From Aquipseudomonas alcaligenes MRY13-0052 (lineage in GTDB: Bacteria > Pseudomonadota > Gammaproteobacteria > Pseudomonadales > Pseudomonadaceae): 46,626 bases of DNA. The notes below the pieces were generated by a model that was not told the origin of the DNA, did no database searches, and saw only the letters and a list, made by a program, of their open reading frames with translations. Within the stretch, counting starts at the first letter, position 1. Each line of letters opens with the position of its first letter. The translations under genes were made by a program, and so were the position numbers. Location of the stretch: the NCBI GenBank assembly GCA_000474255.1, contig BATO01000049.1, positions 1 to 46,626 on the forward strand, read 5' to 3'. Shown piece by piece: positions 19,512 through 36,593 of the stretch.

Positions 19512-19646
19512 ATGGGCACCCTTTCGGTCAACCAGAACAAACTGCAGAAACGCATCCGTCGCCTCGCTGGCGAAGCCATCGCCGACTTCAACATGATCGA
19601 GGAGGGCGACAAGGTCATGGTCTGCCTGTCCGGCGGCAAGTTATAA
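19512..19646 (+). pseudogene. ttcA: 5' fragment of ttcA, cut by the island
   Basis: The first 43 codons match the N-terminus of TtcA, the tRNA 2-thiocytidine synthetase: [20 protein letters not shown], continuing to VMVCLSGGK. At 19,640 the sequence should go on with DS of the PP-loop SGGKDS, but switches to AT-rich DNA that adds Leu and a stop. The ATP-pyrophosphatase loop is therefore broken, and the cysteine motifs and the rest of the enzyme are missing from this copy. The 3' part is nowhere in the window. Loss of s2C32 tRNA modification is expected unless another copy exists. Confidence 0.9.
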
Positions 19647-19756: not shown

Positions 19757-19795
19757 GTAACTAAATCGGTTATTGGACTAGCTTTTTTGTCAATC

Positions 19796-21042
19796 ATGAA
19801 AGTCAAACGATACCAATTCAATTCGTTGCCCTTCGTGTCGATAGTGGACGAAGCGGATTGCCCTATTGATCCGTATGTTTCCTGCTATCTCAATGGCGCT
19901 TTATCTGCTAAATCGGCCAATACGAGATTTAGGTACGCAAATGAACTGCTGTTCGTGCTGCAGTACTTTTCGGAAAAAAATATTGACCTACCCGAACGAG
20001 TTGCATCGGGCATTTTTATATCCCAGATGGAGTACATGCAGTTCTATGACAGATGCTGCTTAAGTAAGGGTTCTGGTGATGAAGGTATAAATATAAGATT
20101 TCTAGATATAAATGATAAACATTTAAGGAACATCATTGTTGCCAATCAGAAAGGGATGACAAAGGTCGCTAGCGAAACCTTGCAAGGTCGCATCAGACGA
20201 CTTCGACAATTTCTTTTATGGCTGTTCGATGAGTTTCACGAAGTGCAAGATGCTGACGAAAAAACAAAAATAAATTTAATGGGCTTATTTCAAAAATTAG
20301 GTTAGATGAAGATGCCCTTGGCAAGAATGGAGAGCAACATGTCGGCGATCCTGAGGAATCGGTGATCCCGGATGACGTTTTCGTAAAGTTTTTAGAGATG
20401 GTGATGCCGTCATCTCCTAATAATCCCTTTAAAGCATCTAGGGTGAGGAATTACTTGATCGTCAATTTGCTAGTCCTAAGCGGCATCAGAAGAGGTGCGC
20501 TGGCAAAATTGAAGATTTCTGACTGTCTATTTCATGGCACTAACGATCAGCTAGCTATTTATCGATCTGCAAATGATCCAACAGATCCGCGCTCTGAAAA
20601 ACCCAATCAAAAGACAAAAGCACACTTCGCCTCGGTTGATCCAGGTTTTTTGGAGAAGGTTAAGTTCTATATTGACAACGTTCGTATTGTCTTTCCTCGT
20701 GCGCAATTCCATGACTTCGTGTTTGTCAGCGAAAATGACTCTAAAGGCACTGCGGGTCAGCCTCTTTCTTTAAAGGCAATAAATGCAATATTTCAAAAGC
20801 TCTCTAGATCGCTGGGCTTTCATGTCCATCCTCATTTGTTGCGCCACAAATGGAATGAAATTTTTGATAAGAAAGGGGAGTCGCTTGGGGTCAATCCGGC
20901 TTTGCTTGAGGATGCTAGAAAATATGCCATGGGCTGGTCGCAAAATACGACTCAGAACAGACGATATAATGAAAAGAGAATTGCGCTGAAGACGAGAGAG
21001 ATATCAATGGCGCATCAAAAAAGAGTGGATCAGCAAAAATGA
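19796..21042 (+). pseudogene. Tyrosine recombinase 1 of the integration module, frameshifted
   Basis: Two adjacent frames together encode one tyrosine recombinase of about 415 residues. The N-terminal part (19796-20305) has the core-binding domain. The C-terminal part is open from about 20257 in the -1 frame and carries the catalytic Arg in SGIRRGALAKL, the HLLRHKW box and the final Tyr in QNRRYNEK. Adding one G to the G-run at 20281-20283 joins the frames as NLMGLISKIRLDEDALGKN, a smooth sequence, so a single-base deletion (or sequencing error) is likely. The last four bases ATGA overlap the next gene. Without frame correction no active enzyme is made. Confidence 0.8.
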
Positions 21043-22691
21043 CTCGCGAGAAGAGGCGGGAAGTTTTTAAGTCTCTGACTAATGAAGGCTCATGGATTAC
21101 GGCCAAATCTGGCCTGATGGTAAATACCTCAGACGATGTATGGATATTACTGCCGAATAATGGAAAAGGAAAACGGTTGTGCGTTGACTGGGTTCATTCG
21201 TCTAACATGCCAGATGATGATAAAAAATTAATTCTGAGTGTATTTGTGGACTACGTGCGAACCAAGGCTGCGAGTACGGCGTCAGGTATCGTTTGCAATG
21301 TAAAGCCATTTATGTTGAATGGCATTCCGTCGTTAGCCAGAGTTAAATCTATATGGAGTGGGCTGCAGACAAACAATAAGAAGGGGCTCAATCAGTTCTT
21401 TGGGACGCTCTCTAGGCAAGGTAATACACGGTATGAAGAATATCACAAGTTTACGCGGACACATTTGGACAAGGGTAAAGACAATACTCTTGATCCTTCC
21501 ATTGGGGCACTAAGCGATATTGAGTTTGACTCGTTAGCCAGGCAGATCAATGAAAATATACAAGAGTTCGACTGGGGCGCCAGTCGGGATCTTTTGTTTT
21601 TTCAGTCGCCGAGGCTATATGCGCGGCTCAGAAATATAGTCACTAACAAGTTGTTGCTCTCCATCGTAAGGCGGCCAATTCAAATTGCGCTATTGAAATG
21701 GTCTGATTTGATCCCCTCGGGTGCGAGTTTTCGCGACGCGGGAATTCTTCCTGTGGACGAAATCGGCACGGTAGGGGGGCAAACATTGCAGCTTAGAGTG
21801 TTCATAGTTAAGTCTAAGGGCGCACAATTCTCAAGGGAGCGGCCCGAGCGCTATCCTATACATCTTTCCGAATATATCTCAAGGGTTCTTATAGACTATA
21901 AACGGGTGGTATTGGAAGGGCTCAGACTAGTGATGGACTCAGCAGAGATTCAAGTGGATCAATCTGAACTCTTGAGCCTCATGAATGATATGCCTATGTT
22001 TCCAGCGGTTGATTTTTTTGAAGTGCGATTTGACTCTTTAGATTTGTTCAAAAGCATGTTTACGCCAAAGTCTACTGCCTACCACATATCGGAGACTGCA
22101 GTTGCACAGGCCATGAGATGGGTTCCGGTTGCCTCTGATCGAACTGTCGAATGTATGGCTACTTCCAACAGAATTCGTCACACCGTATTAACTCGCGGTG
22201 CTCAAAATGGTCTGCCCGCCGTTCAATTGGCCAAGATGACAGGTGTCACCGTGCCGGCTGCAAGGCATTACATAGATTTGGATTATGTATCTAGGAGAGA
22301 GATTGACACAAAGTATATCGGAAATGAGTTTCTAAAGAAGGCTTTTAGCCATACCTTAACTGTCGTTCCGGAAGGCGATGAGGTCATTGTCGACAATAAG
22401 TTCAACCCTGTTGGTGGGGCACTCAACAAGCATTCCTGCGCGACCTGTTCAACTGTTTTAGGGAGACCATTGGGGTGTTATGGGTGCCCAAACTTTCGTC
22501 CGATGCTAGAAGCTGATCACAGGTCGGTATTGGCTGATGCAGAGGGCAAGCTTGCTGCAAACCGCAACTCCCTAGTTAGTCCTCTTTACGCTCGCAGTAT
22601 TGAAAAATTGGAGAGACAGATTGTTTGGGTGAGGCAAACAATAATGGTTTGCGATGAAGAACTCGCAAGGCGGCGCACAATCGATGCTTAA
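21039..22691 (+). CDS. Tyrosine recombinase 2 of the integration module
   Basis: A 550-residue site-specific recombinase, start overlapping the previous stop (ATGA). The catalytic Arg lies in SIVRRPIQIALLKW (about residue 211), box II in SNRIRHTVLTRG (about 377), where the usual first His is Asn, and the Tyr in ARHYIDLDY (about 410). A C-terminal CATC...CYGC cluster (about residues 467-483) looks like a zinc finger that could bind DNA. It is longer than a simple phage integrase and closer to TnpB of Tn554 in size. AT-rich compared with the chromosome. Confidence 0.82.
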   Translation: MTREKRREVFKSLTNEGSWITAKSGLMVNTSDDVWILLPNNGKGKRLCVDWVHSSNMPDDDKKLILSVFVDYVRTKAASTASGIVCNVKPFMLNGIPSLARVKSIWSGLQTNNKKGLNQFFGTLSRQGNTRYEEYHKFTRTHLDKGKDNTLDPSIGALSDIEFDSLARQINENIQEFDWGASRDLLFFQSPRLYARLRNIVTNKLLLSIVRRPIQIALLKWSDLIPSGASFRDAGILPVDEIGTVGGQTLQLRVFIVKSKGAQFSRERPERYPIHLSEYISRVLIDYKRVVLEGLRLVMDSAEIQVDQSELLSLMNDMPMFPAVDFFEVRFDSLDLFKSMFTPKSTAYHISETAVAQAMRWVPVASDRTVECMATSNRIRHTVLTRGAQNGLPAVQLAKMTGVTVPAARHYIDLDYVSRREIDTKYIGNEFLKKAFSHTLTVVPEGDEVIVDNKFNPVGGALNKHSCATCSTVLGRPLGCYGCPNFRPMLEADHRSVLADAEGKLAANRNSLVSPLYARSIEKLERQIVWVRQTIMVCDEELARRRTIDA

Positions 22692-24981
22692 CAAATACCT
22701 TGGCCGATTGGAACGGCTCATCAGCGAATATCGCGAAGCCAAGCTAGCGCAATTTGAAGGGCATGGCGGCAAGAAAGCGGAGTTTGATGATTTGGTCTGG
22801 TATCATATTGATCCCAATACTGGCCGCCGAACCCGATTCTTGTGCGGTGTACATGGCCGCAAGGGCAAAGGAAACGCCGGCAACCACCCCATAGACGCCC
22901 TTCCTTACCCCTATGACCACCTGATAAAAATATGGATCATAGAAACAACTAATACACCACTTTCCGCCAAAGAAAAACAAGCTCGGACGTCGGTAGCTAG
23001 GAAGATGTTGTCACTCATAGATGGTGATCTCTATGAGCAATCAGAGTCCACAATCACCGGCCTTAATTTGGGGGCGCGTTCAGCTGACCGCTTGCGGCCG
23101 TTTCTCGCGTTCTGCGCTGAAAAGGGGGTGATGCGAAAGGTCAACCTGAAGGGCAGCGACAACAGAGACAGGACGGGACATGCCGCGTTTGACAATACGC
23201 TGGAGAAACTTCCAGATACCCAAACAGTACTTGCGCTAGCCGACATCTTCTCTAGTGTGTTTGAGTATGTGGATGAACATGGCTCGCTGAGCCCTGGTAA
23301 AGAGATAAAAATCCATGATGCCTTAGTGGTGACTTCTGCACTACTGTCGCTGGCATCGCCCAATCGAATTTCTGCGGAAATACCAGTTCTGCCTAAACAA
23401 AAACTGCATTGTTACTCTGAAAGTAATGGAGAGCCAGTTTATTATCTCGACTGGATTGGAAGTAAAGGCTACGGGAACCACAAAAATCACGTACTTGCGG
23501 TGCTCGCTGAGCCGATAAAGAAAGCCCTAAACTTCTTCTACAAGGCATGCGAGCCTGCAAGAATTCTCTGTCGATTCTACGAGAGTCCGGGCAAAAGCTT
23601 GAAAGCGTTGCTCAGTGGGTTCGAAATGGAACCAGAGCTAGAGAGAAATTTAAATTTAACCAAACGGCCTAATCTTTTCACATTGGGGTATGCTTTAGGG
23701 TTTTATGGGGTTAATGATTGCGTTCCGGTCCTTAAGGAAGGAGCTGATCTGACTTCCATCCATCAAAGTCAAAGAGGTCGTTTTTTCGAAAAAAAACCGA
23801 TTTACTCGTTGCAGCCTCAAGATCAGTTGTCCGTGTCGCAAACGAGAAGTGCAGCTTTAGCAGGATTACCCCACTTGTTCGGGTACGCCAATATGCCAAA
23901 AGTTTTTTCCGATAAGTCTGTCGTTTCGGTTGAAGAAGTGCAGGAGTGGTGGATTGCTTTCTATAGGACATCAATTTTGCCGGAATTTCCGCTCTCATTT
24001 TCAACCGGAGAATCAAGTATCAAACTTAAGGATGCCATGTTCTGCTTCTTGGGGAGTTGGCTTTATGGTGCGCCCGAGAGTGTCGGAAGTGGTGGGAAGG
24101 TTTTTCAAAAGACAAACTATGCGGTGGTGCCATTAGCGTCGCTAGGCGCCTCGGTTCTTACTCGACTGGTCGGCCAGGGGCGCTACACGACATCGATTTT
24201 TCAGGATTACGGATTTTCGTCAGAATTAATTCTTCGACCGCATAGTCTGCGGCACTTATCTAACACCCTTGCTGATTTAAGTAGCATTCCAGTTGAAATT
24301 ATCACTGCTTGGTCTGGCAGAAAGAATCCCGAGCAAACCCATACTTATATTCATACGACTCACGACGAGAAAGCCAGTCGTGTGAGTGCGATATTGAATC
24401 CGCCAGATATCGACAGGCGGGATATTCGAGTCGTTTCCCAAGATCAACTTACACAAACCACCAACCTGCCGGCATCTGTCACCTCCACCGGTCTTTGTAC
24501 TCAAAATCTTAATGTAACGCCTTGCAATTATTTGAACGATTTCGTCTCGCAGTGCTTCATGTGTCCGGATACTTGTCACATAGCAGGCGATGTGAAGACA
24601 ATCGAGTTTTTTGAGAAAGATTTATCGTTTCAAACTTTGAGATTAGAATCGGTAGCGTGTGATCCACGCTTACCAAGCTCCCAGGCAATGAGGCAGTGGT
24701 ATCTAATTCACTCGCGAAATACCCATATTCTATCCATGCTGAATGATTTGATGAAAAGTAAGGCTGTCGGAACGATGATTTGTTACTCAGATAAAAATTC
24801 TGAGTTCAGTTTGACCGATCTAAATACCAAGATCATTACAAAGGTCGCGTGTGCCCTACCGGATTTTGAGGCTCGCCTGAAGGGTATTATTGAAGATAAG
24901 ACTGCCAGAACAGCATCTGATGCTAATCCCGAGTTGCGCTCTCTTTTATCCTCTTTCGGTCTGTCTGAAGGCGAGGTGTGA
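22654..24981 (+). CDS. Tyrosine recombinase 3 of the integration module
   Basis: A 775-residue protein overlapping recombinase 2 by 38 nt; an alternative ATG at 22684 would leave an 8-nt overlap. Catalytic Arg in SPNRISAEIPVL (about residue 237), the box RPHSLRHLSNTLAD (about 530) and the Tyr in HTYIHTT (about 564) place it among tyrosine recombinases. A 200-residue tail holds a Cys/His cluster (CNYLNDFVSQCFMCPDTCH), perhaps metal-binding. Very large for the family. Together the three recombinases probably act as one complex at the ttcA site; this is inference. Confidence 0.8.
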   Translation: MKNSQGGAQSMLNKYLGRLERLISEYREAKLAQFEGHGGKKAEFDDLVWYHIDPNTGRRTRFLCGVHGRKGKGNAGNHPIDALPYPYDHLIKIWIIETTNTPLSAKEKQARTSVARKMLSLIDGDLYEQSESTITGLNLGARSADRLRPFLAFCAEKGVMRKVNLKGSDNRDRTGHAAFDNTLEKLPDTQTVLALADIFSSVFEYVDEHGSLSPGKEIKIHDALVVTSALLSLASPNRISAEIPVLPKQKLHCYSESNGEPVYYLDWIGSKGYGNHKNHVLAVLAEPIKKALNFFYKACEPARILCRFYESPGKSLKALLSGFEMEPELERNLNLTKRPNLFTLGYALGFYGVNDCVPVLKEGADLTSIHQSQRGRFFEKKPIYSLQPQDQLSVSQTRSAALAGLPHLFGYANMPKVFSDKSVVSVEEVQEWWIAFYRTSILPEFPLSFSTGESSIKLKDAMFCFLGSWLYGAPESVGSGGKVFQKTNYAVVPLASLGASVLTRLVGQGRYTTSIFQDYGFSSELILRPHSLRHLSNTLADLSSIPVEIITAWSGRKNPEQTHTYIHTTHDEKASRVSAILNPPDIDRRDIRVVSQDQLTQTTNLPASVTSTGLCTQNLNVTPCNYLNDFVSQCFMCPDTCHIAGDVKTIEFFEKDLSFQTLRLESVACDPRLPSSQAMRQWYLIHSRNTHILSMLNDLMKSKAVGTMICYSDKNSEFSLTDLNTKIITKVACALPDFEARLKGIIEDKTARTASDANPELRSLLSSFGLSEGEV

Positions 24982-24982
24982 T

Positions 24983-25393
24983 GTGGTAGTCCCAAAAATA
25001 TCAGCTCAGCAGCAGCGTAAGATAGAGATAATGTTGGCTAAGTGGGTAGGTAAGCTGACGTGGGATGCTCTGGTGACTAAGGTTGAACTTGAGCTTGGCA
25101 TAAAAACGACTAGGCAAACCCTCTGCACTTATGTGGGTATCAACACATCTTATAAGAACAAAAAAGCTCAACTTCGGGGGGCAACGCCTTCCCTGCTCAC
25201 AAAGATAACTGCTTCTGAAGTAAAGCTTGTGGAGCAAATAGAGCACTTGAAGGCTGAGGTTGCGGTTCTCAAAAGAAATAATGCAGAGCAACTGCGTATG
25301 ATTGAGAGGATGCTTTTGAACGCCAATGCCATCCCCAACCTGGATCTTTATGCCTTGGTCAAGAAAAGACCTGAAGAGATACAAAATGGCTAA
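24983..25393 (+). CDS. Small coiled-coil accessory protein of the integration module (TnpC-like)
   Basis: A 136-residue protein; the GTG at 24983 almost abuts the recombinase 3 stop and is the best start, since the frame upstream only shadows that gene. An N-terminal helix-turn-helix-like segment (TWDALVTKVELELGIKTTRQ) is followed by a heptad-rich helix (about residues 75-110, VEQIEHLKAEVAVLKRNNAE). In size, position and coiled coil it recalls TnpC of Tn554, an accessory factor of that transposon. No enzymatic motif is present. Confidence 0.65.
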   Translation: MVVPKISAQQQRKIEIMLAKWVGKLTWDALVTKVELELGIKTTRQTLCTYVGINTSYKNKKAQLRGATPSLLTKITASEVKLVEQIEHLKAEVAVLKRNNAEQLRMIERMLLNANAIPNLDLYALVKKRPEEIQNG

Positions 25394-25514: not shown

Positions 25515-26705
25515 TTAACTGACCAGGCGAGCCGTTTTCGGGTCATACGCTACACCGGTAATCGATCCATCCCGAATACGCTCAACTGCTTCATCAATCA
25601 CATGCAGTGGTACTAGGAACCATTCCCTCGGCTTGACCGGATTGCCGAAGCGGTCTTCGATGGTCAAGTTCAACTGCGCTGCGCCGAACAGGCGGTGGAA
25701 GATGTTCTCCAGCCTGGTGCGATTCAGGTTGTGCAGCTTGTAAGTAGCGACCACTTCCACATCTGCCAATAGGTAGGTGGCATCTTTGTTCGCCCCAGCT
25801 ATACGGGTTTCCACCTTGCCACCGGTCACGCCAATCTTGTGGATCAGCTCGCGGTGTTTGGCTACGAATGGGTGGCTGGACTGGCTGCGCAGCACATAGA
25901 TAGTGCCAGTCTCGATGTCGTCCGGCTCGGTTATGTCGCTGAACAGTGGGCCGGAATCTACCTTGATGAGCCGAGATCCGGCACGCCCGTCACTGTCTTT
26001 GTAGAGCGCCCGCTGCAAGGATCGTAATAGCAGATCGCTTTCCGTCTCATTGGAGTAGATGACGCGCAAGCGCCCATTCATCTCCGCATTTGGCGTCTTG
26101 TAAGTGTCGCCCACCTCGGCGACATAGGCAATGAGTCCGCTCAAAATGAAGAAGTCCCCGGCCTCGATGCTCGCGTTCTTGCCAAAGGGCTTGGTTATCC
26201 ACAATTTCTGCTTGAGGCCCGCTTCCACCTCATCAAACAGCGGCTTGAACTTCTCGAAGTCTTTACATGGGTTTCGAGCGGCAATTTCTTCTGCCGCCCT
26301 GATTGCCGCGCTGGAGCGCACATGTCGCAACACTGTGATGTCGTCCTGGTCGACGGACTCACTGCCGATGCCCAGCTCGGCGAGCAAGGCGTCCTCATCC
26401 AGGTCATCCACATTTACTGCGGCGTCCGCACTGCCTGACAGTAGGCCGTGACTATCCAGGCCGGCCAGTAGGGTTTGTGCCTCCGGCAGCTTGCGCAGCT
26501 GATCCAGGCGTACGGCATACAAGCGCTCGAAGATGTCGCGGTCTTCGCCATGCAGTGGGGCGCGGCCGTGGGTCTGATAGAAGCGCTGAATGTCCTCGAA
26601 ACCAGCGATGATGCGTTCTTCGCGAGGAGTTCGAGTGGCTGTCTTGAGCGTGGGGACTTCTACCCCCAACGCATCCAGAAGGTCGTCATCGTTCATATCA
26701 GCCAT
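25515..26705 (-). CDS. GIY-YIG nuclease-family protein of an RM-like operon
   Basis: The 396-residue protein ends in a GIY-YIG domain of the MUG113/T5orf172 type. It shows TIYVLRS (268-273), KIGVT in place of YIG (290-294), the catalytic Arg301 in ETRIAGA and the metal-binding Glu333 in RLENIFHRLF, so the active site looks complete. The N-terminal 200 residues are acidic and helical with no known fold. Last gene of a minus-strand operon; its ATG overlaps the helicase stop by 8 nt. Likely the DNA-cutting subunit that works with the methyltransferase and helicase; this role is inferred. Confidence 0.8.
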   Translation of the reverse strand: MADMNDDDLLDALGVEVPTLKTATRTPREERIIAGFEDIQRFYQTHGRAPLHGEDRDIFERLYAVRLDQLRKLPEAQTLLAGLDSHGLLSGSADAAVNVDDLDEDALLAELGIGSESVDQDDITVLRHVRSSAAIRAAEEIAARNPCKDFEKFKPLFDEVEAGLKQKLWITKPFGKNASIEAGDFFILSGLIAYVAEVGDTYKTPNAEMNGRLRVIYSNETESDLLLRSLQRALYKDSDGRAGSRLIKVDSGPLFSDITEPDDIETGTIYVLRSQSSHPFVAKHRELIHKIGVTGGKVETRIAGANKDATYLLADVEVVATYKLHNLNRTRLENIFHRLFGAAQLNLTIEDRFGNPVKPREWFLVPLHVIDEAVERIRDGSITGVAYDPKTARLVS

Positions 26706-28809
26706 TGGCGGATTCCCCCTGTGCCGCTTTGGCCTGGGCGCGGTAGCGTGCCAACGCAGCTACACCTTCGGCCATGCGCTTTTCCCAGGCATCAGCAGAA
26801 TTGATGTCAGGCAGGCGGCCACGCTCATTCTTGAACTGCAGAGCACGTTTTGCCAGTTCTCGTGCTTCGTCTTCGGGAATGCTCACCTTCTTGGCCGCAA
26901 TGCTGGCCTGCACCTGGCGCAGGGACTTTTCATCCATCGCCTTCGCCAGTACCGCATAGGCGGCATCGAAGGGGTTGATGCGGTCGATCAGGTCAATGTC
27001 CAGCTCGCGCACGTTTACGAACTTGCGCACGCCATCCAGCAGTGCGTTGCTGCCTTGCACGTTATCGCTACCGTTTGCATCTGCCTGCGCCAAAGCCAGT
27101 TTGGCCTGTTGGGTAATGTTCATGGCCGCGATGGCGTGTTGGCGGATGGCTTCCTGGTCGACGTCGCTCAAGTCGGGATAACGCTCGCGCACGATCTTGC
27201 CCATGCGCAGCTGGGTCAGCTCCTCAGGCAAGGTATTTTCCTTATCGAATAGACCGCGCTCCAGCACGGTTTTGTCCTGCAGGAAGCTGGTTACTACTTC
27301 GTTCAAATCTTCCTTGCAGATGCGCGTGGCTTCTGTGCTTTGCGGTGTGGTCAGGCCATTGATCTCGACATGGAACTGGCCCGTGGTCTCATTCACACCC
27401 AGATTGGTGCCACCCGTTTGATACCCCTCCGGCCCGTAAGTGAAGCCTTCTTTCGGCCCGGTATCTTTCGGGGTGAACTCATAGCGCGGGGCGAGCACCT
27501 GTTCCATCAGCAGGCTGGCGGAAATGGCCTTGAGCATATCGTTTACCGCCTCGGCTACAGCTGCTTGATCAGCCATTGGCTCGGCGATCAGGTTGGTGAA
27601 GCGCGAGCGTTCCTTGCCCTCAGCATCGCGCGTGGCGCGGCCAATGATCTGCACGATTTCGGTCAGGCTCGAGCGGTAGCCGATGGTCAGGGCATGCTCA
27701 CACCAGATCCAGTCAAAGCCTTCCTTCGCCATGCCCAAGGCGATGATTACATCCACGTTGTCGCGGTTGTTCTTCTGAGCCGGGTCTTTCAGTGCGCCTA
27801 GCACTTTGGAGCGTTTTCCTGGGTCGCTGTCATCCACAAGGTCGGCCACTTTCAGCGTGCGGCCGTCCTTGGCTTTGATCAGGTGGAAGCCGGTCACCGA
27901 GTCGACACCCTGCCAATCGCCCAGCGAGCTCATGATCTCATTGACCTCACGCTCCTTGTCTTTAAGGCTTTCGCGAGCAGCTGGATGTGGGATGTGGACG
28001 ATGGTTTTCAGCGCCGGGTCCAGCACCTTAGCGACCGCATCCACGTATCTCCCGGTGTAGAAGAAGTAGCCAATATCCAGTGACTTGAGCCAGCGATAGC
28101 CGTTGAGCTGCTCGTAGTAGGTGTATGTCACCGTCTCGAACTTATTCTCGTCCGACGGGGCCAGCACGGCCTCGCTGTCGCCACGGAAGTACGAGCCGGT
28201 CATGGCCACCAGATGCACCTTGTCGCGGCTGATGAACGCGCTCAGTTGGCTACCCAGTTTGTTGTCCGGGTTGGCGGAAACGTGGTGGAACTCGTCGATG
28301 GCAATTAGGCGGTTGTCGAAGGTGTCAATGCCCAACTCTTCCACGGCAAAACGAAAGGTGGCATGGGTGCAGACCAGCACCTTGTCGCTGCTGGTCAGGA
28401 AGGCACGCACGGCATCCACCTTGGACTTGGCCACACGCGGTTCATCAATACCTGGTGCATTACACAGGTTCCACTGTGGGGCTACTTGCCAGTCCCAGTA
28501 AAAGCCGTGTTGGCTCAGCGGCTCATCTGCAAAGCTGCCGCCAATGGAGCGCTCCGGCACTACGACGATGGCCTGTTGCAGTCCCTGGTTATGGAGCTTG
28601 TCTAAGGCGATGAACATCAGGGCGCGGGACTTGCCAGATGCGGGCGGCGACTTGATCAGCAAGTACTGTTCACCGCGCTTGGCATAAGCGCGCTCCTGCA
28701 TGGTACGCATGCCTAGCTGATTGGCCTTGCTGGATGCCCCTGTGTGCGCGGTAGCAATGGATACCGACGGCACTGTGTAGCTGTTGGTCGGGTTGGTAGT
28801 GTTAGTCAC
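26698..28809 (-). CDS. DEAD/DEAH-type superfamily 2 helicase of the RM-like operon
   Basis: An SF2 helicase or translocase of about 703 residues. Motif I is SPPASGKSRALM, motif II DEFHHV, motif III-like MTGSYF, motif V GMAKEGFDW and motif VI QIIGRATRD. The C-terminal 250 residues are helical and of unknown fold. The GTG at 28809 is preferred as start, because it overlaps the stop of the micro-ORF (GTGACTAA) and follows a GGAGC site. An open frame with TTG/ATG codons extends about 19 codons upstream but shadows the micro-ORF. It should move on DNA between target recognition and cleavage, as in type I or III systems; this is inference. Confidence 0.85.
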   Translation of the reverse strand: MTNTTNPTNSYTVPSVSIATAHTGASSKANQLGMRTMQERAYAKRGEQYLLIKSPPASGKSRALMFIALDKLHNQGLQQAIVVVPERSIGGSFADEPLSQHGFYWDWQVAPQWNLCNAPGIDEPRVAKSKVDAVRAFLTSSDKVLVCTHATFRFAVEELGIDTFDNRLIAIDEFHHVSANPDNKLGSQLSAFISRDKVHLVAMTGSYFRGDSEAVLAPSDENKFETVTYTYYEQLNGYRWLKSLDIGYFFYTGRYVDAVAKVLDPALKTIVHIPHPAARESLKDKEREVNEIMSSLGDWQGVDSVTGFHLIKAKDGRTLKVADLVDDSDPGKRSKVLGALKDPAQKNNRDNVDVIIALGMAKEGFDWIWCEHALTIGYRSSLTEIVQIIGRATRDAEGKERSRFTNLIAEPMADQAAVAEAVNDMLKAISASLLMEQVLAPRYEFTPKDTGPKEGFTYGPEGYQTGGTNLGVNETTGQFHVEINGLTTPQSTEATRICKEDLNEVVTSFLQDKTVLERGLFDKENTLPEELTQLRMGKIVRERYPDLSDVDQEAIRQHAIAAMNITQQAKLALAQADANGSDNVQGSNALLDGVRKFVNVRELDIDLIDRINPFDAAYAVLAKAMDEKSLRQVQASIAAKKVSIPEDEARELAKRALQFKNERGRLPDINSADAWEKRMAEGVAALARYRAQAKAAQGESANG

Positions 28810-28930
28810 TGTGATTCTTGCTCCATGAGAGTGCCATCGCCTGAGCATTGTGGATGCGGCCTTCAAGATCAGCTAACCAATCGCCGCAGCTTTCAGGGGA
28901 GGTGGTCAGGCTAGCAGGGATATCGCTCAT
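28802..28930 (-). CDS. Micro-ORF (42 aa) between methyltransferase and helicase, YhcG/DUF1016-like N-terminus
   Basis: This 42-codon frame starts in an ATGA overlap with the methyltransferase stop and ends in a GTGACTAA overlap with the helicase start, so it is fully embedded in a translationally coupled operon. The stretch CGDWLADLEGRIHNAQAMAL resembles the first helix of DUF1016/YhcG nucleases, which then normally continues much further; here the frame stops. It is either a truncated remnant kept for translational coupling or a functional microprotein. No catalytic residues remain. Confidence 0.55.
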   Translation of the reverse strand: MSDIPASLTTSPESCGDWLADLEGRIHNAQAMALSWSKNHSD

Positions 28931-31707
28931 ACCTTTTTCCCTCGTGGCTTTTTCGATGCGGCCCCCAATGTACCCGCTGTCATCTTGGTGTAGAGATCAA
29001 ACAGCTTTTCCAGTCGCTCGGTATCGTTTTTGAAGCGACGACCGATGTAGATACGCTCCAGCACTTCATCGTTGCGCTCGTGGGCGTGGCGCAGGTTGTC
29101 CGGCATGGCTTCTGGATCGTACAAGTCGGCAATGGTCGCGGGAAAATGGGCTTCGCGAGCCAGCAGGATGTCCTCGGCGCAGCGGGTCAGATCGGCCTTG
29201 TTCTGTTCGGTGAGCAGTGGTATGGGGAAGGTATTCCAGCCGAGCAAGTTTGAGTAACGAATGTCCGTCTTCAGCTTTCCACATACTGTAGAAATCCACA
29301 CATGATGAATTTTACTGCTGATAATTGCGAATTCATAACTGTGCCCGCCGACGATTTGCATGTGCGGAGCAATAACGAGAGCATCACTACCTAACAGCCC
29401 CGATGTAACATATTCCCTTCGCTCAGATAAAACCTGAGGTATAAATATCTTACATGCCGCCGCATGCCTTCTTTCGGCAAAATACATTGGAACTGCGCTT
29501 AGCTTTCGAGTTGCTTCTCGATTGCTTGCTGCGCGATATTTGCGCACGCGATCAAATACGCCCGAAAACTCTTCTTCCTGAGCACTTGATAATGTGGTTG
29601 TCTCATCGATATATATATTCCTTCGCACAATCCCCCTGATGAATTCAGCTCCTCCTACGGCGACTTTGAAAATACTCTTATTTTCCGGATTGGCACTGAT
29701 GCTGGCTCTGTATCTGTCATCGGAGAATGTGAATTCACCGTTGTCGTTAGACATGCTCCCATAACTCATTGCAGATACCTGCGACAATGGAGTCTGTCGC
29801 TTTGAGACAACAATGTCGGGCATTGGAACAAGATATGGGCCGATGTTCTCAACTCTGCGCCTAGACTCATCACCATATATGTATCGCTCAGGTCGAGCCC
29901 CGTCACGAGCACAGCCAACGATACTGCATGTTACACCTGCATTATTAGATGCATTGTTCGACCACATGAAGCTTGGATGACACCAGTAAATTTTCAGACT
30001 ATAGCGAGAGATTGTATGGAGGACTATTTCAGCCTGCTCTCCTTGGAATAAGCTGGAGGTTGTCACAAACGAGAAGGCGAATCTCTCAACTTTAGAAGCA
30101 TACTGCGCCGCCTTTAAGAGCCAGCAGCCAACGTAGTCTAGGTTTCCGGAATTTATGCCTTCGCTTTTAAATAGTGCCGCTATGTCGTCTTTTTGGTCTT
30201 TTGTTTGGTACTTTGTCCCAACATATGGCGGGTTCCCGCAAATATATGTTTCTCCACCTTCGTTCGCGAATTCGATCTCCGCCTGATTAAGTGGAGTACT
30301 GAACAAGTCATCTGCGAGTAATTTCACAGCTGTGCCTGTAGGAGGACAGATGTTCAGCCAGTCCAGCCATAGCGCATTACCGCAGATGATCCAATTTTGC
30401 GCATCCAGCGGTAGAAATTCCGCCAACGCATCCTGCTGGCCTCGATAGAGCACGTCGCACTGAAACTCGGCAATGATCAGCGCCAGGCGGGCAATCTCTG
30501 CCGGAAAGTCGCGGAGTTCGATACCGCGGAAGTTAGTCAGCGGTATTTCGGATTTGTTGTGGGCTTCGCCCCGGCGACGATTGATTTCCGCCTCGATCTC
30601 ACGCATCTGCTTGTAGGCAATGACTAGAAAGTTGCCGGAGCCGCAGGCTGGGTCAAATACGCGGATGCGTGCCATACGCTTGCGCAGATTGAGCAGCTTG
30701 GCTTTGTTGTCACCGCATGCATCCAGTTGCTCCCGAAGGTCATCCAGAAACAGCGGATTCAGCACCTTGAGGATATTGGGCACGCTGGTGTAGTGCATGC
30801 CCAGTGCGCCGCGCTCTTCATCATCGGCTACGGCCTGGATCATGCTGCCGAAGATGTCTGGGTTGATTTTTTTCCAGTTGAGCTTGCCAGCGTGCAGCAG
30901 GTAAGTGCGCGCCATGCGCGTGAAGCGTGGCACTTCGGTACTACCGGAGAACAAACCGCCATTCACATAAGGGAAGGTGTTGGCCCAGCTGGGCAGGCGT
31001 GGCTGAGCAGTGGCGCGCTCGGCCAGCTTGATGTTCATGGCGCGGAAGATTTCCGACAGCAACTGGTGGGTGTTTGAACCGTCGCGCTCGCTAAACTGCT
31101 CAACTGTCTTGGTAAACAGACCATCGCCACGGAAGATATCGGTATCTTCGGCAAAGAAGCAGAAAATCAGCCGCGCCATAAAGTGATTCATGTCATGGCG
31201 GCGTTCGGCCTTGGCCCAGTCCGGGTTCTCGTTTAGCAGCTCGACGTACAGCTTGTTCAGGCGGCTGGTGGCGCGCACGTCGATGGGGTTGTCCTTGATC
31301 TCCTTGATGGTGGAGATGCCGGCGAGCGGCAGCAGGAACCCGAAATGGTTGGGAAAGTCCGGGTAGTCGCAGGCGATGGTTTCACCTGTGATCAGCTCTT
31401 CGGCCTCCAGCGTTTGTCCGTCGGTGGCTAGTATGAACTTGGCTTTGGCTTTTGTAGTGGCCGGGCTGGCACGCAGCGCCTTGAGCGTTTCGCCCACGCC
31501 GCCAAGCTCGCAAGTGGCGATATGGATGTTACTGCGCAGTAGTACGCCGCCGGGTACGTCCGAGGCGTTGTTGTTGCCGGCGCGCAGGCGCTTGAGCGCG
31601 GTTTCCTTGTTGCCGAACGCGGCCAGGAAGGTGAACGGGAACTCCGCCGCGTCAAAGGGCTCAAGGGCCAGGTTCGATATGGCGGACTCAATTTCTACTG
31701 CATTCAT
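28927..31707 (-). CDS. MmeI-like class I N6-adenine DNA methyltransferase
   Basis: A 926-residue protein, first gene of the operon. The N-terminal region carries AEFPFTFLAAFGNKETALKR and the HDMNHFMARLIFCFFAEDTD block of the MmeI-like family. SAM motif I is VFDPACGSGNFL (about residue 353) and catalytic motif IV ICGNPPYVG (about residue 492), the NPPY type that methylates adenine N6. A target-recognition domain (about residues 600-830) and a C-terminal helical region follow. No PD-(D/E)XK nuclease motif is seen at the N-terminus, unlike fused type IIL enzymes, so cleavage may come from the GIY-YIG protein. The central part is AT-richer than both ends. Confidence 0.87.
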   Translation of the reverse strand: MNAVEIESAISNLALEPFDAAEFPFTFLAAFGNKETALKRLRAGNNNASDVPGGVLLRSNIHIATCELGGVGETLKALRASPATTKAKAKFILATDGQTLEAEELITGETIACDYPDFPNHFGFLLPLAGISTIKEIKDNPIDVRATSRLNKLYVELLNENPDWAKAERRHDMNHFMARLIFCFFAEDTDIFRGDGLFTKTVEQFSERDGSNTHQLLSEIFRAMNIKLAERATAQPRLPSWANTFPYVNGGLFSGSTEVPRFTRMARTYLLHAGKLNWKKINPDIFGSMIQAVADDEERGALGMHYTSVPNILKVLNPLFLDDLREQLDACGDNKAKLLNLRKRMARIRVFDPACGSGNFLVIAYKQMREIEAEINRRRGEAHNKSEIPLTNFRGIELRDFPAEIARLALIIAEFQCDVLYRGQQDALAEFLPLDAQNWIICGNALWLDWLNICPPTGTAVKLLADDLFSTPLNQAEIEFANEGGETYICGNPPYVGTKYQTKDQKDDIAALFKSEGINSGNLDYVGCWLLKAAQYASKVERFAFSFVTTSSLFQGEQAEIVLHTISRYSLKIYWCHPSFMWSNNASNNAGVTCSIVGCARDGARPERYIYGDESRRRVENIGPYLVPMPDIVVSKRQTPLSQVSAMSYGSMSNDNGEFTFSDDRYRASISANPENKSIFKVAVGGAEFIRGIVRRNIYIDETTTLSSAQEEEFSGVFDRVRKYRAASNREATRKLSAVPMYFAERRHAAACKIFIPQVLSERREYVTSGLLGSDALVIAPHMQIVGGHSYEFAIISSKIHHVWISTVCGKLKTDIRYSNLLGWNTFPIPLLTEQNKADLTRCAEDILLAREAHFPATIADLYDPEAMPDNLRHAHERNDEVLERIYIGRRFKNDTERLEKLFDLYTKMTAGTLGAASKKPRGKKV

Positions 31708-32078: not shown

Positions 32079-32300
32079 CTACAGCTCTGACAACTGAGGC
32101 ATAAGGCAGGATGGATCGCAGGCGAGCTCGCTTGCGATCCGATACAGCTTCTCGACGGTGATGTTTACTTCACCACGCTCGATACGCCCCATATAGCTAC
32201 GGTCGATACTGCAGGCCAGCGCTAACGCATCCTGAGAAATCCCACAGGCCTTTCTCTGCGTCCGGATGCGTTCCCCTAACGCTTTCGCCAACTTCTCCAT
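32079..32300 (-). CDS. XRE-family helix-turn-helix regulator, C-protein-like
   Basis: A 73-residue single-domain regulator: RIRTQRKACGISQDALALAC, then DRSYMGRIERGEVNITVEKL, the complete XRE helix-turn-helix. Its size is that of restriction-modification controller (C) proteins. It lies between the RM-like operon and the divergent coiled-coil/helicase pair, so it may control either; 104 bp separate it from the latter. It has no ligand domain. The target is inferred from position only. Confidence 0.82.
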   Translation of the reverse strand: MEKLAKALGERIRTQRKACGISQDALALACSIDRSYMGRIERGEVNITVEKLYRIASELACDPSCLMPQLSEL

Positions 32301-32404
32301 GACCGTCTCAATTCCACTTGAGGCGGCACTATCGTGTGTTTGCGGACGCAGGGGCCACGGATTATAATCCGCATTTCTGCTGCGTTAACTCTTCTGGTGC
32401 CTCA

Positions 32405-32992
32405 ATGAAATCGGCCTCGTTTATCTTCGACAGGCGTCTGTATGAGCTGCTTCAGGAGGAAGGGTGTGCAAGGTTCACGACGCGTGAACTGCGTGACGCC
32501 TATGCTGCTCGCCTGAAGGGCACACAGTTCCGTATCGCCGATGTGCGCCACTACGTGTATGAACAGATCCGCAGAATGCTGCGCATGGGCTGGGTTGTGC
32601 TCGATGAAGAGCGCCGTTCGCGGGGACAGGTCTACCACCTGCTGCCGATTCCGGCACATCTGCAACTGGAGCTGATCGACAACGGGTTCGAGAACAGCCA
32701 TAAGACCGCTTGTGAGTCAGAGCAGGAGCCGTCAGCGTTCAATAATGCGGCGGCACCGCAACCATCAGCCGATGTGGATCAGCACCTGGAAGCGCTCCTC
32801 AAGGAAATCAGGCTGGACTTCCTGGCATCGATGGGCGAGGCGGAGCGATACAAGCTGCTCCTCGATGATATGCCGCATCTCCGGGATAAGGTCGAAGGCG
32901 AGTACCTGGAAGCTAGAGACCGAAGCTCGCGCCTGCTGGGCCATCTTCGCGCCATCGAGAAGACACTCAAGACGCTTGCCTCCGCACGATGA
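32405..32992 (+). CDS. Winged-helix-like and coiled-coil protein, partner of helicase
   Basis: A 195-residue protein of no family I can name. The N-terminal 85 residues (FDRRLYELLQEEGCARFTTR, then VRHYVYEQIRRMLRMGWVVL) look like a winged-helix DNA-binding domain. A low-complexity linker follows, and the last 80 residues form acidic/basic heptads typical of a coiled coil (LEALLKEIRLDFLASMGEAE). Its stop overlaps the start of the helicase gene (ATGA), so the two are made together. It may recognise DNA and recruit the helicase; this is inference. The ATG at 32405 is preferred over an upstream alternative. Confidence 0.65.
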   Translation: MKSASFIFDRRLYELLQEEGCARFTTRELRDAYAARLKGTQFRIADVRHYVYEQIRRMLRMGWVVLDEERRSRGQVYHLLPIPAHLQLELIDNGFENSHKTACESEQEPSAFNNAAAPQPSADVDQHLEALLKEIRLDFLASMGEAERYKLLLDDMPHLRDKVEGEYLEARDRSSRLLGHLRAIEKTLKTLASAR

Positions 32993-34389
32993 CCACACTG
33001 CTTCGAGACTGGCAACGCCGCTGCATCGACACGGCACTAGAGCACTTCACTACCACGCCGCACTTCTTCTGCCAGGCAACGCCGGGCGCCGGCAAGACGC
33101 GCATGGCGGCAGAGCTGGCCAACAGACTGCTTGAGCAGGACAGAATCGATCTGGTGCTCTGCTTCGCTCCGTCCTGTCAGGTTGTCGAGGGCTTTCGCTC
33201 GTCCTTTGCTGCGGTGCTCGGCAGACGCTTGGATGGCCAACTCGGCGCAGTTGGTGCAGCGTTCACCTATCAAGCCATGGAATACCGAGATGAGGCGTTC
33301 TGGCGACTCCTCGATGACTACCGTGTATTCGCGGTTTTTGACGAGATCCACCACTGCGCCGGCCATGATGTACTCCTGAGCAACGCCTGGGGCCAACAGA
33401 TTCTTCAGCGGGTACAGGACAGGGCCACCTTCACCCTGGCCCTATCCGGCACCCCATGGCGTTCGGACGACCGGGCCATTGCTCTGGCCCGCTACTCGAC
33501 GCCCGAGGGGTACCTGATCTGCGACTACCGCTACGGATTGAAAGAGGCCATTGCTGATGGTGTGTGCCGCTCCCCTCGCATTGTCCTCCTCGACAACCAG
33601 AAGGTGAAACTTACCGAGGAGCTGGACACTGAGAGCACTGTCAGGATGTTTCCCAGCATTGCCAAACTATTGGGGGAGTCCCCTGTCACCTACGAAGAGC
33701 TGTTGCGTCATGACGAGGTGATTGATCAGTTACTCGGTCTCGGGTGCAGCAAGCTGGATGAGCTTCGCCTGATCAAGCCTGATGCGGCAGGCTTGGTGGT
33801 TGCCACCGACATCGAGCACGCCCAGCAAATTGCTTTGGCCCTGGAAACCCTGGGTGAAGGTTGCCGCATCGTCACCAACAAAACCCCGGCTGCGCAGCAG
33901 GTTATCAATGCGTTCAGACACAGCGCCTGCCGTTGGATTATCGCAGTTGGAATGATCAGCGAAGGCACGGACATTCCTCGACTCCAGGTGTGCTGCTACC
34001 TCAGTCGCATCCGCACTGAGCTGCATTACCGACAAGTGCTTGGGCGAGTGCTTCGGCGCACAGGCGAGCCCGATAATCAGGCGTGGCTATTCATGTTAGC
34101 GGAGCCGACACTGCAGTGCTTGGCAGAGAGAATTGCAGATGATCTACCGGATGACCTGGCAGTGCTGAACGAGGTAGAGATGCCAGCCTCCACTTCAGGT
34201 TCAATATCTGGCTGGATTGGGGCTGCTGGCAATATCGATGTCCTGGATGACAGTAATGGAAGTGGCATTGCGCAGGTAATTGGGGCAGGTGCTACATGCA
34301 CCTTATCCCTGGGGGGCTCTGCCGCTGAGCCAAACCATCTGGTCAGCTTTTCCAAGCACTACCGGCAACAGTTGCTGGCTTGCTTTTGA
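32989..34389 (+). CDS. Superfamily 2 helicase (ResIII/DEAD-like)
   Basis: A 466-residue helicase with every core motif: Q-like LRDWQRRCI, motif I ATPGAGKTRM, II DEIHHC, III LSGTPWR, V GMISEGTDIP and VI YRQVLGRVLRR. It is close to the restriction-helicase (ResIII) group. The two RecA domains fill the chain and only about 70 residues follow motif VI, with no nuclease domain. The start overlaps the partner stop by 4 nt. The nearby XRE gene and RM-like operon suggest defence, but no effector is visible. Confidence 0.85.
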   Translation: MTTLLRDWQRRCIDTALEHFTTTPHFFCQATPGAGKTRMAAELANRLLEQDRIDLVLCFAPSCQVVEGFRSSFAAVLGRRLDGQLGAVGAAFTYQAMEYRDEAFWRLLDDYRVFAVFDEIHHCAGHDVLLSNAWGQQILQRVQDRATFTLALSGTPWRSDDRAIALARYSTPEGYLICDYRYGLKEAIADGVCRSPRIVLLDNQKVKLTEELDTESTVRMFPSIAKLLGESPVTYEELLRHDEVIDQLLGLGCSKLDELRLIKPDAAGLVVATDIEHAQQIALALETLGEGCRIVTNKTPAAQQVINAFRHSACRWIIAVGMISEGTDIPRLQVCCYLSRIRTELHYRQVLGRVLRRTGEPDNQAWLFMLAEPTLQCLAERIADDLPDDLAVLNEVEMPASTSGSISGWIGAAGNIDVLDDSNGSGIAQVIGAGATCTLSLGGSAAEPNHLVSFSKHYRQQLLACF

Positions 34390-34721: not shown

Positions 34722-35369
34722 ATGAGAGCCGCAATGTCCAGCACTGATTTTGCTCTGTCGGTATCCACCCGCATTGCGCAACGGGTCAAGCGCTTACCCA
34801 AAGGGCAACCCTTCTGCATCAGCCGCTTTGCGGAGCTTGGAGCGCGTGGCGCCATATCCAAGGCAGTAGCTCGGCTGGTCAGCCAAGGCGAACTTGAACG
34901 GGTGCATCGAGGAATTTACATGCGCCCGAAATCCAGTCGATACGTTGCACGGGTCCGCCCCAATGTATGGGAAGTAGTGAGCTTGATCGCTAGGCAGAAC
35001 CGCCATGTTCTTCAGATTCATGGCGCTCATGCGGTCAGGTTGTTTGGACTGAGCACCCAGGTGCCGCTCATTCCGATCTATTACACCAGCGGACCCAGCC
35101 GCTCGTTTTTTATAGGTAAGGGTGAGGTCCGGTTGGTACATGCGGCACCAATGGTCATGCAGCGTGCCGGGACCGAGGTAGGGACGGCTATCAGCGCACT
35201 ATTTTATCTCGGTAAAGACGGCTCGACCCCGGAATGCATTGCCGCGATCAAGAAGGTGCTCAGGCCTGAAGACCTAACCACATTAATGGCCTGCAAAATG
35301 CCGAAATGGATGCGCATGGCGTTGGAGCAGTCAGCGCGCATACACACCGTCAACACGCTTGCTCCTTAA
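34722..35369 (+). CDS. DUF6088/AbiEi-like antitoxin-type regulator
   Basis: A protein of about 215 residues. The N-terminal winged-helix segment (FCISRFAELGARGAISKAVA, then LVSQGELERVHRGIYMRPKS) is typical of AbiEi-type and DUF6088 proteins. A second domain of the transcriptional-antitoxin type follows (IHGAHAVRLFGLSTQVPLIP, YYTSGPSRSF). An ATG at 34734 has a better GAGAG site and is an equally possible start. No AbiEii nucleotidyltransferase toxin follows, so it is an orphan or works with the small gene before it. Confidence 0.7.
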   Translation: MRAAMSSTDFALSVSTRIAQRVKRLPKGQPFCISRFAELGARGAISKAVARLVSQGELERVHRGIYMRPKSSRYVARVRPNVWEVVSLIARQNRHVLQIHGAHAVRLFGLSTQVPLIPIYYTSGPSRSFFIGKGEVRLVHAAPMVMQRAGTEVGTAISALFYLGKDGSTPECIAAIKKVLRPEDLTTLMACKMPKWMRMALEQSARIHTVNTLAP

Positions 35370-35432: not shown

Positions 35433-36587
35433 TCACCCCTTGACCAAACGAAGATGGGCACCTGATTTCCCACCAGAGTCGGATGGGTTAGCGCTCTGCC
35501 CCTTCAACACGTTCAACATCAATCCGAACGTCAATTCATTGATCTCCTCAGGACTGATTGCCAGTTCTCCCGCGACGCCAGCTTTCCCAACCCCATCTGC
35601 ACGTAACGCGGCGAAAATCTTCTCCAGGATCACTGACCGCTCATGAGCAATAGATTCCGGCTCTTCGGTGCGATAGCCCTCTTGAGCAATCTGAATACAC
35701 AGCGTTCGGTAAGCCCACTCCGTGGAAAGCCCCAGGCTATGAAGCCGGTAATTTAAGGCTGCCACAGAAACGGACCAGAGCTTCTTGTATTTGATGAGGC
35801 TTTTGATAGTGATCGAACGTGGAGCCATCGCTAGAACGCTTGCACGTGGCATTAGAAAAGCCGACGCAAAGGCATTCGCCTCACGCTCTAAATCAGGTCC
35901 TTGTGGGTGGGCATGCTGGTGCATAACCAAATGTCCTAATTCATGAGCTGCGTCAAAGCGGCAACGCTCGGCCGACTTAAAGGTATTCAAGAACATAAAG
36001 GGGCGGCCGCCACTCCACATCGAGAACGCGTCGACCTCCTTTGCATCAATTGCAAGTGAGTAGACACGAACGCCTTTCGACTCAAGAAGCGCAATCATGT
36101 TCTTAACCGGCTGCTCACCTAAACCCCAGTGTGCCCTCAGCATCTCCGCAGCGGCCTCTGGCGCTTGGGCACTGCGTGATAGTGCCAGCTTATCGAGCGC
36201 CTCAAAATTCGTCAGTGCAGCGCGTTCGGACCCCAGGTCCGGAAGATCTGGCTCTGGCAAATCGAAACGTTGCTCGATCCAGTCATTCAGCAGGAGCGCA
36301 ATTGCGCCTGCACCGAGAGCTGAATCCCTAAGGCCAGCAGTCATCTTTGAGAGCGACCGGAAACTGGCAACATCCGGCGTTGGCACCTCAGGATCATCAC
36401 CAAAGAAAAACGCTTCGGGGAACCGAAGCGTTTTAGCGATTTTTGCCAGGGTTCCAGGCTCAGGCTCCTGCGTGCCGCTCTCGTAGCCGGAGACCGATCG
36501 CTCCGTTACTCCTATATGAGTGGCAAGCTCACGCTTTTTCATACCTCGCCGGCGACGGGCGAGCGCAAATCGTTGTGGATTAAACAT
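35433..36587 (-). CDS. XRE regulator fused to ImmA/IrrE metallopeptidase domain
   Basis: A 384-residue protein with an N-terminal XRE helix-turn-helix (residues 5-60, ATHIGVTERSVSGYESGTQE) and a central DUF955 peptidase domain with zinc motif HELGH (215-219) and downstream Glu in EREANAFASAFLMP. Such proteins repress, and in ImmA-like cases cleave a repressor after DNA damage. Downstream partner of the gene at 36594, whose stop lies 6 nt before its start; the two form one unit. It may be an antitoxin, an induction switch, or a regulator of the island. Confidence 0.88.
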   Translation of the reverse strand: MFNPQRFALARRRRGMKKRELATHIGVTERSVSGYESGTQEPEPGTLAKIAKTLRFPEAFFFGDDPEVPTPDVASFRSLSKMTAGLRDSALGAGAIALLLNDWIEQRFDLPEPDLPDLGSERAALTNFEALDKLALSRSAQAPEAAAEMLRAHWGLGEQPVKNMIALLESKGVRVYSLAIDAKEVDAFSMWSGGRPFMFLNTFKSAERCRFDAAHELGHLVMHQHAHPQGPDLEREANAFASAFLMPRASVLAMAPRSITIKSLIKYKKLWSVSVAALNYRLHSLGLSTEWAYRTLCIQIAQEGYRTEEPESIAHERSVILEKIFAALRADGVGKAGVAGELAISPEEINELTFGLMLNVLKGQSANPSDSGGKSGAHLRLVKG

Positions 36588-36593
36588 GATCTA

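Follow-up and report, generated by a model that had tools for sequence, protein, structure and literature searches.

What kind of system is encoded by the four tightly packed genes on the minus strand between 25515 and 31707 of contig BATO01000049.1 from Aquipseudomonas alcaligenes MRY13-0052, a stretch of 46,626 nucleotides (nt) that we refer to as the window? We consider it quite probable that they form a three-subunit restriction-modification (R-M) system, type IIG-like or type I-like in character and of the OspHL35III (DnmA-YeeB-YeeC) type, in which the target-recognition domain (TRD) of the methyltransferase (MTase) is a replaceable specificity cassette, the junction between the MTase and the helicase is a slot for passenger genes, and the micro open reading frame (ORF) now in that junction is the remnant of a DUF1016/YhcG gene. 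The genes follow each other in the order MmeI-like MTase, 42-codon micro-ORF, superfamily 2 (SF2) helicase and GIY-YIG nuclease. An earlier note made from the sequence had described this order, a common strand and overlaps of 4-8 nt, and the ORFs are found as it claimed: the MTase stop overlaps the micro-ORF start by 4 nt (28927-28930), the micro-ORF stop overlaps the helicase GTG by 8 nt (28802-28809), and the helicase stop overlaps the nuclease ATG by 8 nt (26698-26705). The four products may be made in a fixed ratio, as that note also held.

The second of these overlaps presupposes that the helicase starts at GTG 28809. The ORF list has a TTG at 28866 instead, and the record of an identical plasmid copy has an ATG 39 nt upstream of the GTG. 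We infer that GTG 28809 is the start, because it is the sole in-frame start in the relatives L010, L025, L026, L027 and L032. An 8-nt overlap of helicase and nuclease is found in 91 of 107 measured rows, a count that is biased towards 8 because the script picks the start codon nearest the 8-nt position; the remaining 16 deviate (-357 to +661), five of the 107 are the window or identical copies, and two further rows are without nuclease.

We begin the description of the subunits with the first (28927..31707, minus strand, 926 amino acids, aa), which the evidence of Pfam, PADLOC, an alignment with MmeI (PDB accession code: 5hr4) and a family alignment identifies as a probable MmeI/DnmA-type adenine MTase and target-recognition subunit. 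All five MmeI domains of Pfam (MmeI_N, hel, Mtase, TRD and C) are above their cut-offs, the PADLOC type IIG profile covers nearly the whole protein (871 bits), the motifs DPACGSGNF and GNPPY are found, and residues 89 to 912 align in two stretches with the MTase, helicase-spacer, TRD and C-terminal parts of MmeI. In 31 aligned MTases of the family the only invariant residues at positions 1-120 are M1, F23, D96 and A102, so that no D...ExK triad is conserved in the N-terminal part; likewise no PD-ExK motif is conserved in the N-terminal domain across these 31 sequences, which include no nuclease-bearing MmeI aligned at this place, the MmeI residues before 108 lying outside the alignment with 5hr4. 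MmeI, a single-chain enzyme of type IIL, to our knowledge needs no separate helicase or GIY-YIG chain. It bears its own PD-ExK nuclease, according to passages of PMC7261158, whereas the window MTase has none conserved and does not have the nuclease motif in the same chain that type IIL calls for.

The second subunit (26698..28809, minus strand, 703 aa from the presumed GTG) is a putative YeeB-like SF2 helicase/translocase, as judged from Pfam, motifs and fold matches. ResIII is matched at its cut-off, with DEAD and Helicase_C just under theirs. GKS (59-61), DEFH (172-175) and TGS (204-206) are invariant in 27 sequences, as are QIIGR, T and R within QIIGRATR (387-394), and the predicted structure matches SF2 helicases including EcoR124I HsdR, RadD and SauUSI.

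The third subunit (25515..26705, minus strand, 396 aa) is a putative YeeC-like GIY-YIG nuclease of the T5orf172 family, an assignment made from Pfam (T5orf172/MUG113), catalytic residues and a structural model. Its Y270, G292, R301 and E333 are invariant in 47 sequences, so that Arg301 and Glu333 had been picked correctly in the earlier note. That note had also seen in these proteins an MmeI-like MTase free of a nuclease motif, a full helicase motor and a full GIY-YIG active site, and the alignments bear it out on each. The nuclease model (predicted local distance difference test score, pLDDT, 77.8; predicted template modelling score, pTM, 0.42) has a helical N-terminus, an SH3-like barrel at about 170-248 and the GIY-YIG domain at about 257-392, with a weak Slx1 match across the GIY-YIG part. 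A second T5orf172 protein of the same genome (G000:C176:25266-25544; L120 7147-8502, minus strand) matches PADLOC PD-Lambda-1 (484 bits). Separately, an Acinetobacter lwoffii locus (L121 6936-8142) with this type of operon has a 95-codon ORF of its own before a shorter GIY-YIG gene, as if the nuclease were made of two chains.

The next question is "has this combination been described before?" By its gene content the window operon is best assigned to the OspHL35III (DnmA-YeeB-YeeC) type: it has an MmeI-like MTase with TRD and no PD-ExK motif, a separate SF2 translocase downstream, and a separate GIY-YIG (T5orf172) protein as the last gene. Passages of Blow et al. 2016 (PMC4752239) describe the OspHL35III type as a type IIG-like R-M system with the same triple, that is, an MmeI-like MTase/TRD protein lacking an N-terminal nuclease motif, a separate translocase and a separate GIY-YIG nuclease. 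We find no difference in gene content, and these passages make no mention of a passenger slot or of TRD exchange. According to passages of PMC7261158 and PMC9973331, synteny is conserved for dnmA-yeeB-yeeC as well, with the helicase and T5orf172/GIY-YIG families first and second downstream of DnmA homologues; DnmA forms N6-methyladenine in GACGAG, and a type I-like reading of the locus is attributed to Morgan et al. 2009. In common with the Bacillus subtilis locus, as these passages present it, are the three families and their order, an MTase lacking a restriction endonuclease motif and a location on a horizontally acquired island, the likeness being one of families and order and not of direct protein alignment. 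The B. subtilis copy is reported inactive as an R-M system, while that of the window bears the scar of a passenger, with a helix-turn-helix (HTH) gene lying upstream of the operon. The earlier note had proposed an RM-like system with recognition, translocation and cutting on separate chains. The anatomy fits this proposal; the novelty that it implied fails, because described systems with the same three families exist, the very case in which that note was prepared to give the idea up.

How does the operon compare with the other known architectures? Type ISP systems, of which LlaGI and LlaBIII are examples, and type I systems have site recognition, an SF2 translocase and a nuclease in common with it in outline. 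Type I is made of HsdR, HsdM and HsdS; here the TRD is fused to the MTase (Pfam), there is no separate HsdS, and the nuclease is a separate GIY-YIG chain. Type ISP places all activities, including a Mrr-family nuclease, in one chain, according to passages of PMC4666363, whereas in the window they are on separate chains. The triple is also absent from passages of PMC10853773, PMC9519451, PMC10952713, PMC12629846 and PMC4081073.

A further comparison is with systems that exclude phages without cutting, in the manner of BREX or DISARM, where the GIY-YIG protein would be structural or DNA-binding. The MTase is indeed similar to DrmMI (100 bits) and more weakly to PglX profiles, among the PADLOC matches listed. 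DISARM, however, is defined by DrmA, DrmB (DUF1998) and DrmC beside the MTase, and BREX by PglZ and BrxC/PglY with PglX. Within the 8 proteins scanned (three core and five neighbours) there is no PADLOC match to DrmA, DrmB or DrmC, and none of them matches PglZ or BrxC/PglY; in that set the earlier claim that the gene content is unlike DISARM, BREX and the classic R-M types holds. With no other defining subunit among these proteins, and with the catalytic residues of the GIY-YIG protein invariant, such exclusion without cutting appears highly improbable.

To examine how firmly the three genes belong together, we consider 80 named loci, which are the best 80 of a helicase scan with more rows and thus near relatives of the helicase and not a fair sample. 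The MTase is upstream of the helicase in all 68 loci with at least 3.5 kb of room, the GIY-YIG gene is downstream in 75 of the 76 with at least 0.7 kb of room (the exception being L069), and both are in place in 65 of the 66 with room for both. The association of the triple is more than chance. Relatives of the helicase are present in 264 of 72,556 plasmid records, and in 152 of these they span 80% or more of the query. Among genomes, 8 of 95 from relatives of the window have one, as do 12 of 369 from the class when E is limited to 1e-30 (own genome included in both counts); 3 of 50,697 phage records have weak or partial ones, and an identical helicase is found in a P. otitidis genome. The order MTase-helicase-GIY-YIG is annotated on plasmids of Klebsiella, Acetobacter, Rhodococcus, Aeromonas, Ligilactobacillus and Staphylococcus, with the MmeI part split over two coding sequences on the Ligilactobacillus plasmid. 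A Providencia copy has just a short MmeI fragment adjoining IS5, and on the A. baumannii plasmid p2014TJAB1 (L122 2976-6780) an ISAba1 stands at the start of the remaining helicase part, near blaOXA-23.

We turn to the part of the operon that does not keep pace with the rest. Six operons (L010 and L023-L027) are very similar to the window in the helicase (94-96% identical), the nuclease (90-95%) and MTase residues 1-490 (91-94%). In MTase residues 500-835 the same six have 33-40% identity to the window, and in residues 836-912 the identity is back at 83-96%. The sliding identity of the MTase drops near residues 480-500 and rises again near 800. This comparison of six operons and the sliding identity place the exchanged segment at about residues 500-820 (29248..30210, minus strand), which comprise the end of the catalytic domain and the TRD. 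Over 3,240 pairs from 81 MTases, core and TRD identity are correlated with a Pearson r of 0.24. The 50 pairs with a core identity of 90-95% have a median TRD identity of 37.9% (range 30.8-87.7), the upper end being L024 and L065, which have a TRD in common at 87.7%. Distant hosts, on the other hand, can have TRDs that are closer than their cores: the segment is 84.1% identical between Polaromonas L011 and Tumebacillus L100 (core 73.5%), and 81.2% between L056 and L095 (core 74.6%). The TRD segment is thus swapped independently of the rest of the operon, and the motor and the nuclease would appear to accept different TRDs, as the parts of a self/non-self system would.

Combining this information with the anatomy of the subunits, a working scheme can be drawn. 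The MTase would recognise one site through its TRD and methylate an adenine there, so that the host DNA is marked. At an unmethylated site on incoming DNA, the MTase-TRD subunit would recruit or load the helicase for ATP-driven translocation, and the GIY-YIG nuclease would nick or cut in cooperation with the helicase. The TRD segment would be the replaceable specificity cassette on an otherwise constant chassis. Methylation, translocation, cutting, the formation of a complex and an effect on phages are all predictions of this scheme.

Several points weigh against an active system of this kind. Its activity is beyond what a sequence can show, and the confidence of the helicase model is middling (pLDDT 69.4). 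There are broken copies on some plasmids, and the helicase has stop codons in some relatives, so that not every copy can be active. In B. subtilis the locus affected neither three phages nor transformation, and the authors of that work speak of an R-M relic (passages of PMC7261158 and PMC9973331). Deletion of a Vibrio crassostreae homologue did raise the sensitivity to some phages, a protection for which the mention in passages of PMC9973331 is the sole source. The negative tests in B. subtilis are also what speaks for a different view, proposed for B. subtilis dnmA, in which the MTase is an orphan working in gene regulation and the helicase and nuclease are a dead or regulatory remainder that no longer restricts. 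Yet in the window the motif residues of the helicase and the GIY-YIG protein are intact, and they are invariant in the aligned relatives; the synteny holds in 65 of 66 loci; the TRD has been swapped while the helicase and nuclease stay, which suits a self/non-self system; and the operon lies on a recently moved stretch. We therefore regard an orphan regulatory MTase as unlikely here, and keep the three-subunit R-M system as the preferred reading.

Where does the micro-ORF come in? The answer lies in the junction between the MTase and helicase genes, which is resolved in 77 of the 80 loci (the other three are on contigs without the MTase). Of these junctions 35 are occupied and 37 are empty, while 4 hold a scar and 1 is short. 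The occupants, counted once per locus although several loci (e.g., L061, L076, L084, L089, L093) have two or three ORFs in the slot, are DUF1016 (13), Schlafen-AlbA/HATPase (5), RhuM (3), GmrSD_N (3) and others (11), classes that derive from Pfam matches of a single representative for each blastp cluster, with L055, L066 (truncated) and L067 assigned to DUF1016 via tblastn. In the class of others we find a Fic protein, a PDDEXK_4 protein, one that resembles AAA_15/OLD and matches TOPRIM below the cut-off, another that matches PLD, likewise below the cut-off, and some proteins that have no match. L064, which has minus-strand ORFs only, and L050, L087 and L101, where the ORF calls are uncertain, are counted there too. 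Representative passengers match the PADLOC families PDC-S02 (DUF1016), PDC-S05 (RhuM) and PDC-S26 (PDDEXK_4). The MTase stop carries RTGA in 31 of the 35 occupied loci, and the passenger start, as called by a longest-ORF caller, is exactly there in 21 of the 35. The junction is a slot where passenger genes enter and are lost.

The history of the slot is reflected in a helicase tree of 95 rows (FastTree; 95 of the 105 loci with a label are in it, 30 of its 90 inner branches are weak, and the others count as one state), in which the slot state needs at least 33 changes; the mean for shuffled labels is 43.8, and 0 of 200 shuffles are as low. The DUF1016 label alone clusters no more than shuffled labels do (240 of 500 shuffles are as low). 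The well-supported group to which the window belongs has 10 members, 6 with scars, 3 with DUF1016 and 1 with RhuM. The DUF1016 protein of an Aeromonas type I operon has 77-86% identity to nine slot copies, which are mutually 76-97% identical, so that the passengers seem to be common to different operon types. A comparable embedding of unrelated defence genes between R-M genes, GmrSD-like in both cases, is that of TgvAB in the type I R-M operon of VPI-2 (passages of PMC11411939); the embedding host here is of the OspHL35III type and not type I or Hma.

Against this background, is the micro-ORF (28802..28930, minus strand) a gene or a remainder? In a search of plasmids limited to E 1, its 42 residues match 5 records: the identical copy, Polaromonas pH1NP1 (63.6% over 33 residues), two Aeromonas media plasmids (48.5%) and Pseudomonas luteola (E 1). 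In the last four the match is to the start of a gene annotated "PDDEXK nuclease domain-containing". In pH1NP1 this gene is intact, has DUF1016_N and YhcG_C, and separates the MTase gene from that of the helicase; in Aeromonas it is flanked by hsdM and hsdS in a type I operon, and in P. luteola it is not within any R-M operon. Pseudomonas taeanensis L025, with a helicase 96% identical to that of the window, has an intact DUF1016 gene at the same junction, and the end of this gene closely matches the window DNA after micro-ORF codon 30. With an N-terminus like that of the pH1NP1 gene and a tail like that of L025, the micro-ORF is best read as the deletion scar of a DUF1016/YhcG nuclease gene, which retains about 30 N-terminal codons of the old gene and has its tail out of frame. 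The earlier note had taken it for a component of the operon; the scar of a removed passenger gene explains it better. The same scar is found in L003 and L024, and scars with other junctions in L010 and L032. That in L026 is less sure, being alike only in the first residues and the tail, and that in L004 begins like RhuM. In Acidovorax p1-T1 the ATG that overlaps the MTase is the start of the helicase, whose first residues resemble the beginning of the DUF1016 gene.

A functional small protein, or a dedicated translational coupler under selection, would be more than a mere scar. In its favor, four distinct scars of the DUF1016 type (L026 less surely) stop no more than 8 nt from the helicase start. 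Of simulated random deletions, however, a fraction of 0.32 to 0.65 come as close, so that four out of four is a weak signal (about 0.01 to 0.18) and no selection for coupling is demonstrated. In L004 the end of the RhuM-like scar is at a distance of 21 nt, the window tail does not keep the frame of the old gene, the scars are unlike each other, and the 37 empty junctions do without any ORF. A selected function of the micro-ORF is accordingly improbable, and as a scar it would now be at most a link that keeps translation coupled.

The operon has a clear setting in the window. The stretch 19624-43600, of which the right limit is the end of the query, is 100.0% identical to a stretch of the P. 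aeruginosa plasmid pPA942-IMP45 bar a few bases of length difference, which points to a recent move between replicons; the G+C content drops from about 0.67 on the left to 0.43-0.58 across most of it. At one end, close to where the plasmid identity begins at 19624, is a putative recombinase module (19787..25393, plus strand), in which one ORF (20362-21042, plus strand) has a Phage_integrase match; the other ORFs have no Pfam match, and it is only their look and order that suggest recombinases. A short gap may divide the first recombinase into 19787-20305 and 20362-21042 (plus strand), with the Phage_integrase match in the second part only.

Upstream of the MTase is a small XRE/HTH protein of 73 aa (32079..32300, minus strand; HTH_3), whose best match of solved structure is C.AhdI (4.2e-10) and which resembles the controller proteins of R-M systems. 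It is possibly a regulator, outside the conserved core, with full-length copies only in loci identical to the window. Homologues of RmrA (543 bits) and RmrT (213 bits) are found by PADLOC at 35433-37244 (minus strand), a pair named RosmerTA (PMC11883136), and with a DUF6088/AbiEi-like protein at 34722-35369 (plus strand, 179 bits) they give the operon a defence neighbourhood. Another defence unit may be present at 32318-34389 (plus strand), where two genes overlap by 4 nt; one encodes a protein of 224 aa and the other an SF2 helicase with weak matches to PbeA and RadD (the latter below cut-off). A LysR/ptxD/phn cluster is also on the stretch 19624-43600.

What does the locus tell us about the family? 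As a tentative proposal, which may well need revision, we suggest that operons of the OspHL35III type are a modular platform for defence in which two parts can be exchanged independently of each other: a TRD cassette, by which the specificity is reset, and a slot within the operon that takes unrelated second-line nucleases or other effectors, the window being in a post-passenger state with a short linking ORF left. If this is true, a passenger would come under the translation of the modification gene and would be produced only where the mark is produced. No mention of the passenger slot or of TRD exchange in this operon type was found in the passages of a limited literature search, and an earlier description is possible. 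This three-chain R-M type is widespread, yet the passages of the literature on it contain almost no biochemistry of the helicase and nuclease. Natural pairs of operons that differ mainly in the TRD segment would allow one to test whether specificity sits in the TRD alone, and whether one helicase or nuclease can stand in for another. What the embedded DUF1016 and RhuM genes add would be seen from close relatives with different passengers, and reading the micro-ORF as a scar would give a simple explanation for the puzzling micro-ORFs of defence operons.

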